DNA of 64,000 nt, from positions 1,116,001 to 1,180,000 of the forward strand of contig NZ_QKNW01000001.1 of NCBI RefSeq assembly GCF_009663395.1. The letters run 5' to 3'. Shown in pieces: positions 6,813 through 20,661 of this stretch. The notes beneath the pieces were generated by a model, which saw only the letters and a list, made by a program, of their open reading frames with translations, made no database searches and was not told the origin of the DNA. A program made the position numbers and the translations under genes. The stretch comes from Halosegnis longus (lineage in GTDB: Archaea; Halobacteriota; Halobacteria; Halobacteriales; Haloarculaceae). Within the stretch, counting starts at the first letter, position 1; each line of letters starts with the position of its first letter.

Positions 6813-6960
6813 GGATTCGGGTTCGGTTCGTGGACTGAAGGCTGTTGTGACCGACTCGAAGCCGATTACTTCGGCATCCTTGCCGTCGTGAGCTGTTTGA
6901 ATGCCTCGGAGGTATGTGTTTCTGAGTTTGGCTCCGTCGGTGAGTACGGCTTCAAAGCCC

Positions 6961-7056
6961 CGGGCGTGTCGCGGTCGCTCCGTGACATATCGGTCGCTCG
7001 CGTTGCTCGCTCCCGATAGTGGTCACGGAGCCGACCACGCGGACGCGACACGCCCG
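6961..7056. repeat. Long interrupted inverted repeat
   Basis: Three nested pairs of arms match perfectly: CGGGCGTGTCGC (6961-6972) with 7045-7056, CTCCGTGAC (6978-6986) with 7022-7030, and TATCGG (6988-6993) with 7013-7018. The loop is the repetitive TCGCTCGCGTTGCTCGCTC. Such a cruciform-capable unit is larger than needed for a terminator. Confidence 0.75.
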
Positions 7057-7087
7057 TCTGGGCAAGACGCTGCGCGTCTTGCTGACC

Positions 7088-7113
7088 CTGAAGTCTGCCA
7101 CGGCAGACTTCAG
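7088..7113. repeat. Perfect 12-bp hairpin
   Basis: Arms CTGAAGTCTGCC (7088-7099) and GGCAGACTTCAG (7102-7113) with a two-base loop, 5 bases after another hairpin (GCAAGACGC, 7062-7070 with 7074-7082). There is no T-run behind it, so it is not a standard terminator. Confidence 0.8.
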
Positions 7114-7300
7114 GACCCCTTTCAGTCCCCCCGACAGTACCGTCCACGAGCCTCCCCAACCGACTCACTCACTGCGTTCGCTCGTCCACTGTCAGAGCAC
7201 GCTCTGACAAGCCGTCGCTCGGTGCCCTCGCGACGACCTCGCGCTGACTCGCGCGACAAGCGCGCTCGGGCCACGCCACCGCACTGCGTCGCTCGATTGA

Positions 7301-7366
7301 GCAGCCAAGGCGGTGGCCTGACGCACCGCTCGCCGTGCGAGCGTGTGCGTCGTGGGGAAAGGTTGG
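7301..7366 (+). repeat. Dispersed intergenic repeat, copy A
   Basis: Shares a core of about 65 bp with the reverse complement of 20514-20578. Shared blocks include GTGGCCTGACGCACCGC, GCGTGTGCGTCG and GGTTGG, in the same order. The GACGCAC and GTGCGTC blocks can pair to form a hairpin. Both copies sit in non-coding DNA. Confidence 0.75.
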
Positions 7367-7598
7367 TGCGGTCGCGGTGCGGTTTCCCCTGAGCCAAGCA
7401 CCGAGGGTGGTCGCGGTGCTGTCGAACTCATCGTAACCAACACCGTGCCGGTCCCGAGACCAAGCAATGAGAGTGGTCGCGGGATTATCGAGGTCGAACG
7501 AAACACCACCGCACCAGCGAAAGTTCCCCGAACACCACAATCCAGCCCACACAGTCGGAACCGCTAACTGACGCAGGGTCACAGACACGAACAATCAG

Positions 7599-9107
7599 AT
7601 GCAGCTACCCGACGCCGCGGTCGCCCTGCTCGAATCCGCGAGCGCGACCGACGCCAAATCAATCGAACAGCTCGCCACCGACACCGACGAGAAACCCGAG
7701 ACGCTCACCGGGGCCGCCTTCGACCTCGAAGCCGACGGGCTCGTCGCCATCGAGGAACGCGTCGAGGTGTCGCTCGAACTCACCGACGAGGGGGAACAGT
7801 ACCGCGCGCACGGGCTCCCGGAGCTTCGACTCTACCGCGCCGCGGCCGACGCCGGCGCAGCAGACGACCCCGTCCCGATGGGACAGGTCGTCGGTGCCTC
7901 CGGACTCGAAGGCCCCGAAGTCGATATCGCTCTGATGAACTTCGCGCGCAAGGGGCTCGGCTCCATCGACTCGGGCGAACTGTCCGTGAACGCCGACGCA
8001 GAGGTCGATTCCGACGCCGAGCGCGCGGCGCTCGATGCTATCGCGGACGACGACGCCGACGGTCTCGACGACGACACCGTCGACCGACTCGTCGAGCGCG
8101 GACTCGTGGAACGGCGCGAGCAGACCAACCGGTTCGTCACGCTCACCGACGACGGCGTGACGGCGCTCATGGAAGGCGTCGAGACGGCAGCGACGGTCGG
8201 CCAGCTCACGCCGGAGCTGCTCACCTCCGGCGAGTGGGAGGACGTGGAGTTCGCCGAGTACAACGTCGAGGCCGACGCCGAACCCGTCACCGGCGGGAAG
8301 ACGCACATCCTGCGACAGACAGCCGAGTCGGTGAAGGACACCCTCGTCGGGATGGGGTTCCAGGAGATGCAGGGGCCACACGCCGACGCCGACTTCTGGA
8401 TCAACGACGCGCTGTTCATGCCCCAGGACCACCCCGCGCGCACCCACTGGGACCGGTTCACCCTCGACACCGACCCGATGACGGACCTCCCGGACGACCT
8501 CGTGGGTCGGGTGGAGGACGCCCACCGCAACGGCGTTGGTCCCGACGGCGAAGGGTATCACTCGCCGTGGTCGCGTGAGTTCGCCGAGGAGGTCGCGCTC
8601 CGGGGTCACACCACCTCGCTGTCGATGCGGTATCTCTCGGGCGAGGAAATCGGCGACCTCGAGCCGCCACAGCGGTTCTTCTCCGTCGAGAAGGTGTATC
8701 GCAACGACACCCTCGACGCGACGCATCTGCTGGAGTTCTTCCAAATCGAGGGGTGGGTGATGGCCGAAGACCTCTCCGTGCGCGATTTGATGGGCACCTT
8801 CGAGGAGTTCTACGCCCAGTTCGGGATTACGGACATCGAGTTCAAGCCCCACTACAATCCGTACACGGAACCGAGCTTCGAGCTGTTCGGTACCCATCCG
8901 ACGACGGGTGAAATCGTCGAAATCGGGAACTCGGGTATCTTCCGCGAGGAGGTGCTCTCGCCGCTGGGCGTCGAGTGTGACGTGATGGCGTGGGGACTCG
9001 CGCTCGAACGACTCCTGATGCTCATGTACGGGTTCGAGGATATCCGCGACGTACACGGGACCTTGTGTGACCTCGACCTGCTGCGGAACGTGGAGGTGCT
9101 CGCGTAA
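7599..9107 (+). CDS. pheS: Phenylalanyl-tRNA synthetase alpha subunit
   Basis: A 502-residue class II synthetase subunit that charges tRNA-Phe as an alpha2-beta2 enzyme. The first ~200 residues are the helical/winged N-terminal region typical of archaeal and eukaryotic PheS. The catalytic domain follows from about 230, with motif 2 in FSVEKVYRND plus FFQIEGWVM, the FELFGTHPTTGE strand, and motif 3 in MAWGLALERLLML near the C-terminus. Length fits the archaeal form. The stop TAA overlaps the pheT ATG by one base, so the two subunits are translationally coupled. Confidence 0.97.
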   Translation: MQLPDAAVALLESASATDAKSIEQLATDTDEKPETLTGAAFDLEADGLVAIEERVEVSLELTDEGEQYRAHGLPELRLYRAAADAGAADDPVPMGQVVGASGLEGPEVDIALMNFARKGLGSIDSGELSVNADAEVDSDAERAALDAIADDDADGLDDDTVDRLVERGLVERREQTNRFVTLTDDGVTALMEGVETAATVGQLTPELLTSGEWEDVEFAEYNVEADAEPVTGGKTHILRQTAESVKDTLVGMGFQEMQGPHADADFWINDALFMPQDHPARTHWDRFTLDTDPMTDLPDDLVGRVEDAHRNGVGPDGEGYHSPWSREFAEEVALRGHTTSLSMRYLSGEEIGDLEPPQRFFSVEKVYRNDTLDATHLLEFFQIEGWVMAEDLSVRDLMGTFEEFYAQFGITDIEFKPHYNPYTEPSFELFGTHPTTGEIVEIGNSGIFREEVLSPLGVECDVMAWGLALERLLMLMYGFEDIRDVHGTLCDLDLLRNVEVLA

Positions 9108-20319: not shown

Positions 20320-20661
20320 ACGCTCCGTTGGTGGGTGCCCGGCGTAAGCGTGGCGTCTCTGGCCATCGTCCTCGCGTCGCTGTCGGTGAGTCACGCGCTG
20401 GCTCCGTCCTCGACTCCGTGACAGACCTGATCGCTTGGCCCCAAAGACAGCACTGCGACCGCCGGCGGTTGTGTTGCTCCCGCTCGCTGGCTCGCGGTCT
20501 GTCGACCGCGCGCCCAACCCTCCCCCGCGACGCACACGCGCCACGGGCGCGGTGCGTCAGGCCACTGCCTCGGTTGTTTGCACGGGAGAACGGGCAGCCG
20601 TCGACAGCGTTGCGACTGTGGAAGCGAAAACGCGAGCGAAGAGAGAAATCGAGGGGCGTCC
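20320..20661. other. Non-coding region with a dispersed repeat
   Basis: About 340 bases between the DUF6360 start and the nitrite reductase 3' end. It holds the inverted copy of the intergenic repeat (20514-20578) and a block resembling the GGTCGCGGTGCTGTC motif near 7407 (on the minus strand near 20439-20456). No gene is supported. The DUF6360 promoter must lie at its left end. Confidence 0.7.
20514..20578 (-). repeat. Dispersed intergenic repeat, copy B (inverted)
   Basis: The reverse complement aligns with 7301-7366 over its full length. Identical blocks GTGGCCTGACGCACCGC, GCGTGTGCGTCG and GGTTGG keep their order; the hairpin loop differs by about two bases. The copies lie 13 kb apart. 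Confidence 0.75.

Follow-up and report, generated by a model that had tools for sequence, protein, structure and literature searches.

A dispersed repeat of Halosegnis longus forms the core of a composite palindromic element with places shared between species

REP and REPIN repeats, which are associated with RAYT, are dispersed intergenic hairpins with inverted arms around a spacer. Among haloarchaea, the PATEs of Haloquadratum walsbyi are described, in the sections of the report used here (PMC3119063), as elements without target duplication that carry palindromes near their ends and also occur as terminal-only forms. For the IS200/IS605 elements, the relevant part of a review (PMC5371812) presents insertion as directed by replication. 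In Haloferax volcanii, furthermore, genome copies are reported to undergo efficient gene conversion with one another, in the portion of the study drawn on here (PMC11276520).

Within the window, i.e. the whole stretch of 64,000 nucleotides analysed from the Halosegnis longus genome, the original prediction noticed a 66-bp intergenic repeat at 7301-7366 with an inverted second copy at 20514-20578, its stems persisting while the hairpin loop changed. Both observations held, with the core of copy 1 located at 7301-7366 (+) and that of copy 2 at 20514-20576 (-), mutually inverted and about 13 kb apart. The two copies have a 7-bp outer stem GACGCAC/GTGCGTC and one bulged T in common, and the hairpin tip changes from GCTCGCCGTGCGAGC in copy 1 to GCGCCCGTGGCGC in copy 2. 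A DNA search of the window's genome with copy 2 returned 22 matches, 7 of which were weak and 15 of which had E values of 1.4e-28 to 1.1e-9, and the exact gapped pattern of the repeat occurred 6 times compared to 0 for the reversed control; chance likeness of the two copies is thus excluded. These 66 bp belong to a larger, composite element that is non-coding, measures roughly 350-600 bp and has them as its core; it comprises a head hairpin, a palindromic middle, the core hairpin and a tail, so that the predicted extent captured a real core and was too narrow: copy 1 spans about 6932-7482, upstream of a gene at 7599-9107 that we take from its protein sequence to be pheS, and copy 2 consists of the core with a degraded tail, the latter read by eye. 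The features of both copies are as follows.

6932..6976 (+): head unit (H) of copy 1, containing CAAAGCCCCGGGCGTGTCGCGGTC; matched by BLAST with a manually built head consensus (E 9e-13)
6953..7123 (+): head hairpin of copy 1, in which CAAAG plus GGGCGTGTCGC pairs with GCGACACGCCC plus CTTTC, with nested hairpins inside; read from the sequence
7057..7115 (+): optional nested two-hairpin module of copy 1, missing from many other copies; 12-copy alignment
7116..7300 (+): palindromic middle of copy 1, CCCCTTTCAGTCC, then CCTCCCCAACC... up to the core; BLAST with the consensus of the middle (7116-7187) gave E 3e-25
7301..7366 (+): core of copy 1, placed at 7299-7368 by the covariance model (E 2.5e-15)
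7320..7351 (+): core hairpin of copy 1, its 3' arm carrying a single bulged T
7368..7426 (+): tail (T) of copy 1, matched by BLAST with a manually built tail consensus (E 1e-18)
7453..7482 (+): second tail unit of copy 1, partial and in tandem; E 2e-5
20514..20576 (-): core of copy 2, placed at 20512-20579 by the covariance model (E 6e-16)
about 20416..20463 (-): degraded tail of copy 2, by eye, not found by BLAST

The length of the element is too short for a transposase gene, which, like the palindromes near both ends (head hairpin and core hairpin), is in keeping with a PATE. Optional modules occupy identical slots across copies in an alignment of 12 of 15 copies, from which L007, L009 and L019 were left out as truncated, and each copy has one or more tails. 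Judged by eye, the body ends loosely resemble ACCGCACCGC...CCTCCCC inverted. At the pyrE-side place (1,253,743 in the window's genome, C8:245,019 in Halosegnis rubeus) the left arm is an inverted tail, not a head; H. rubeus has the interior of this place, most of which the window's genome lacks. DNA related to the middle also occurs alone elsewhere in the genus. Thus the original prediction had seen a small part of a larger composite element: it caught the repeat and overlooked the composite and its head-plus-tail forms, as well as how alleles are reshuffled between places and how copies are oriented with respect to replication.

BLAST on fetched stretches revealed 17 core copies in the window's genome and 17 in H. 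rubeus F17-44; the genome-wide covariance search that had been suggested gave 18 matches (one weak, E 0.002) and 17, respectively. All core copies of the window's genome lie on the main chromosome contig C1 (2.45 Mb), with none on the smaller replicons C2 and C3 among the matches listed. A wider DNA query revealed further places in the window's genome, and all 21 places examined there are intergenic according to a simple codon-score gene finder. The genes that flank the copies are unrelated, and tandem, convergent and divergent arrangements all occur. The proposal of a dispersed haloarchaeal repeat family that is non-coding and has compensated hairpins is supported.

A sequence search matched 3 of 39 related genomes, all of the window's genus, and the covariance model, whose E-values are rough, matched 5 of 116 family genomes: the two above, a third Halosegnis genome (G004) with 4 matches and genomes of two other genera with three matches, all weak (2 in G013 and 1 in G020, E 0.0013). 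In G004, G013 and G020 the stems differ, and for the most part the copies again have GGCC, the bulged T, the closing pairs and either GGGGNAGGGTTGG or a closely similar tract; the copy at 410,113, the poorest fit in G004, is without GGCC. A pattern search of genome contigs yielded 72 stretches, 12 from H. rubeus and 60 from unrelated taxa, which we took as chance. Neither the core pattern nor the head motif was found in viral contigs (0 each). Viral carriage suggested by a 3' tract pattern in 5 contigs was rejected, as four of them share one unrelated context and the fifth has no hairpin. Phage records gave no match and plasmid records three partial matches, in Halorussus. No description of the element was found in the literature searched, a body that excludes subscription journals and ISfinder. 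As a separate observation, haloarchaea widely carry GGACTGAAAGGGG ... GGGGCTTTC hairpins whose stems are specific to each copy (examples L209-L238); their exact 13-mer occurred in 36 of 59 genomes, with 130 copies in G001 and 69 in G005, and had one match among all reversed controls. In G004, a long tandem array (L241) with a unit near GTCCGGCTACTGTTCCG lies upstream of a related middle-type palindromic repeat.

The arms of the core hairpin match beyond shuffled controls. Among 34 core copies (33 distinct), 98.2% of the cells of the 12-pair core helix are standard pairs (mean of 87.8% when shuffled), with a covariation score of 0.278 compared to 0.100; related rows can exceed shuffles, and the excess over slid versions is partly due to the structure having been derived from the same sequences. 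The two outer-stem alleles, with 13 and 20 distinct rows, always match arm to arm at both switching positions. Moreover, in 14 copies from five genomes 96.7% of core stem cells pair (79.3% when shuffled), and 7 of 11 core pairs change on both sides. Hairpin-templated correction during replication would also keep arms matched without selection. The wobble cells comprise 4 G-T or T-G against 1 C-A in the core stem and 1 G-T against 4 A-C or C-A in the head stem, whose arms were compared for 22 out of the 23 head segments extracted, with one skipped. They give no consistent strand; RNA is therefore not favoured over DNA, and we rejected a one-strand RNA read from wobble pairs.

The places of the element are largely shared between the two species. 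Judged by flanking proteins (median identity 95% at paired places), 18 of 21 places in the window's genome pair with H. rubeus places, 17 by both flanks and 1 by one; a further place, by an SRP54-like gene, pairs with a truncated H. rubeus copy, and for those at 488,740 and 1,136,510 no counterpart was found in the few H. rubeus stretches compared. Across 13 ortholog core pairs, the true counterpart ranked only 3 to 15 among the 17 H. rubeus copies (9, 6, 15, 10, 6, 3, 10, 4, 8, 5, 10, 3 and 6), so that in sequence a core resembles its counterpart scarcely more than it does copies at other places. Both outer-stem alleles also occur with both of the commonest tips, though the tip sits inside the stem. 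These ranks and combinations show alleles reshuffled between places, probably by gene conversion among dispersed copies. An inversion of about 6.6 kb was also observed between the two genomes (H. rubeus C8:318,577-325,909, C1:1,331,694-1,338,312 in the window's genome); its breakpoints carry a full element and a head-tail form, respectively, in H. rubeus and neither form in the window's genome.

Short forms, in which the head is joined directly to the tail, were found at 1,299,645 and 1,682,456 in the window's genome, at C6:273,116, C9:255,161 and C8:325,804 in H. rubeus, and once in genome G003. At what we presume to be a uridine kinase gene the element is full in the window's genome and short in H. 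rubeus; at a presumed L10e gene it is short in the window's genome and has the core in H. rubeus. Several places are truncated or without a core in one of the two species, and individual copies appear dispensable. The letters at the short-form junctions would fit deletion between short repeats (for example GCGGTC, CGCGGT). We also considered GCGGTC flanking the interior as a target-site duplication and rejected it, since the varied junctions fit short-repeat deletion better. Conversely, head-plus-tail could be the older form, with the interior inserted later; the single G003 place read carries only that form.

The copies further show a bias in direction. The sampled GC skew switches sign at 1,113,988, the position of the main orc1/cdc6 match, and 16 of the 17 core copies are directed away from this gene if the terminus is placed at about 2.10-2.18 Mb, as the skew suggests; a terminus opposite the origin lowers the count to 15, the copy at 2,194,280 being consistent only with the skew-placed terminus. 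When coreless places are included, 19 of 22 composite places point away, the exceptions being 1,136,514, 1,253,743 and 1,659,753. The fraction of 16 in 17 has a binomial probability of 0.00027 against one half and of 0.002 against the rate for genes, 194 of 324 of which (60%) point away according to the same simple gene finder. With both switch points left free, 106 of 4000 random sign sets (2.7%) fit as well, and the polarity of the core copies is only moderate. Agreement with the sign of the local GC skew was seen for 14 of the 17 core copies; the copy at 1,136,514 opposes it, the skew disagrees at 1,306,760 and is near zero at 1,989,277. Of the middle-only copies (578,101, 1,662,961 and 1,738,510), 1 of 3 fits the orientation rule. 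On the same contig, C1:1,567,200-1,587,199 has a low G+C content (0.571 compared to about 0.67) and a second chromosomal orc1/cdc6-like match, and is perhaps an integrated element.

Mobility was examined through transposases, insertion traces and known families. The Y1 transposase (Y1_Tnp) had 0 matches in the window's genome, for which we rejected present Y1-driven mobility on this basis, and 2 in H. rubeus; TnpB matched in all six genomes of the genus, above the cut-off in five. The best similarity of the modules to 30 TnpB loci (a part of the TnpB matches of the genus) and 4 Y1 loci, to which the comparison was limited, had an E value of 0.044 compared to 0.068 for the reversed control, and we discarded IS605/PATE kinship by end similarity on this basis. 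No donor element, transposase, clean insertion boundary or clean empty site was found, nor were the target-site duplications that the original prediction asked to look for. The element is absent upstream of pheS in G003, G004 and G001, yet the G003 site gave no exact junction. The suggestion of a non-autonomous element or a conserved structural motif consequently stands as to the compensated hairpins and finds no support as to present or recent mobility, with no target-site duplication seen, 18 of 21 places shared with H. rubeus and no Y1 match. Repeats in the window and 8 related loci had no gathering-score match in Rfam 15, and copy 1 just weak, chance-level ones.

The reading we favour, with about even confidence, is that of an old, composite, transposase-free palindromic element that spread in the ancestor shared with H. 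rubeus and is now stationary. It would have spread once over the main chromosome, with its head-to-tail strand exposed as lagging-strand template, and its copies would accordingly face away from the origin. The interiors would later have been rewritten by gene conversion among the dispersed copies, hairpin-templated correction or selection would keep the arms matched, and deletion between short repeats flanking the interior (for example GCGGTC, CGCGGT) would leave head plus tail. Against this reading stand the negative results for a transposase, a donor element, a target-site duplication and a clean insertion boundary, the moderate polarity with its three exceptions, the middle-only copies that do not follow it, and a core frame that recurs on different stems in other genera, more than expected of neutral debris. 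The core may have a function. A merely local or segmental duplication, as two copies 13 kb apart might suggest and as the original prediction named as its own undoing, is practically negligible, being refuted by the 17 core copies genome-wide with their unrelated flanking genes. We hold it quite unlikely that the element is a PATE in the sense of an IS200/IS605 element, core-deleted or non-autonomous, that a Y1 transposase mobilises: the near-end palindromes, the lack of a visible target duplication and the terminal-only forms match the cited sections on PATEs (PMC3119063), and the replication-following orientation recalls what the review extract says of IS200/IS605 (PMC5371812), but the window's genome has no Y1_Tnp match and the modules showed no similarity to the 30 TnpB and 4 Y1 loci above the reversed control.

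Two further readings are functional. A conserved structured RNA or cis-acting RNA motif, transcribed head-to-tail or in reverse, could account for the strong core pairing and covariation and for the retention, in several genera with changed stems, of a frame consisting of the bulged T and GGGGNAGGGTTGG, but it is rather unlikely given wobble cells without a consistent strand (4 against 1 in the core, 1 against 4 in the head), the missing gathering-score Rfam match for the window repeats and 8 related loci, and flanking genes in every arrangement. A replication-polar DNA element, serving as a fork, segregation or nucleoid landmark, would explain why 16 of the 17 core copies are directed away from orc1, above the gene rate, why places and orientation are kept between species while the sequence is reshuffled, and why none is listed on the two smaller replicons; the places truncated or coreless in one species, the three orientation exceptions, the just moderately significant polarity and the absence upstream of pheS in G003, G004 and G001 make it unlikely. 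Rather improbable in our estimate, too, is a core acting as a putative protein-recognised nucleic-acid hairpin kept across haloarchaeal genera, in Halosegnis marking conserved, fork-pointing chromosomal sites that homogenising recombination resupplies with intact hairpins; its frame would consist of invariant closing pairs, the 3' tract GGGGNAGGGTTGG and the bulged T, with the stem free to change.

The cross-genus core frame is the part most worth pursuing, and should it and the polarity prove functional, the element would represent a chromosome landmark of a kind new to archaea. Since addresses and direction are conserved between species and letters are reshuffled among addresses, the element may serve as a natural tracer of gene conversion between distant haloarchaeal sites. 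It also offers a case in which to test whether selection or hairpin-templated correction is what keeps hairpin arms matched.

Taken together, the element shares with REP/REPIN repeats the intergenic dispersed hairpins and, at the pyrE place, inverted arms around a spacer; it differs from the REPIN/RAYT system in that the window's genome has no Y1 transposase match. In behaviour it resembles the PATEs and SMRs, and the kinship test is negative. Like the SMRs of H. walsbyi, as far as the cited sections describe them (PMC3119063), it consists of short, transposase-free palindromic units nested in other elements; SMR-A units, of about 110 bp, are there said to have prominent inverted terminal repeats and to insert into PATEs, whereas our element shows just a loose inverted similarity of its body ends, by eye. 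With PATEs, in the same sections (PMC3119063), it shares the missing transposase, palindromes near the ends, no target duplication seen, a heterogeneous sequence, terminal-only forms and nesting with other small repeats. It departs from them in ends unlike the tested IS605-type loci, in having fewer copies, and in places that are shared between species while alleles are reshuffled between places.
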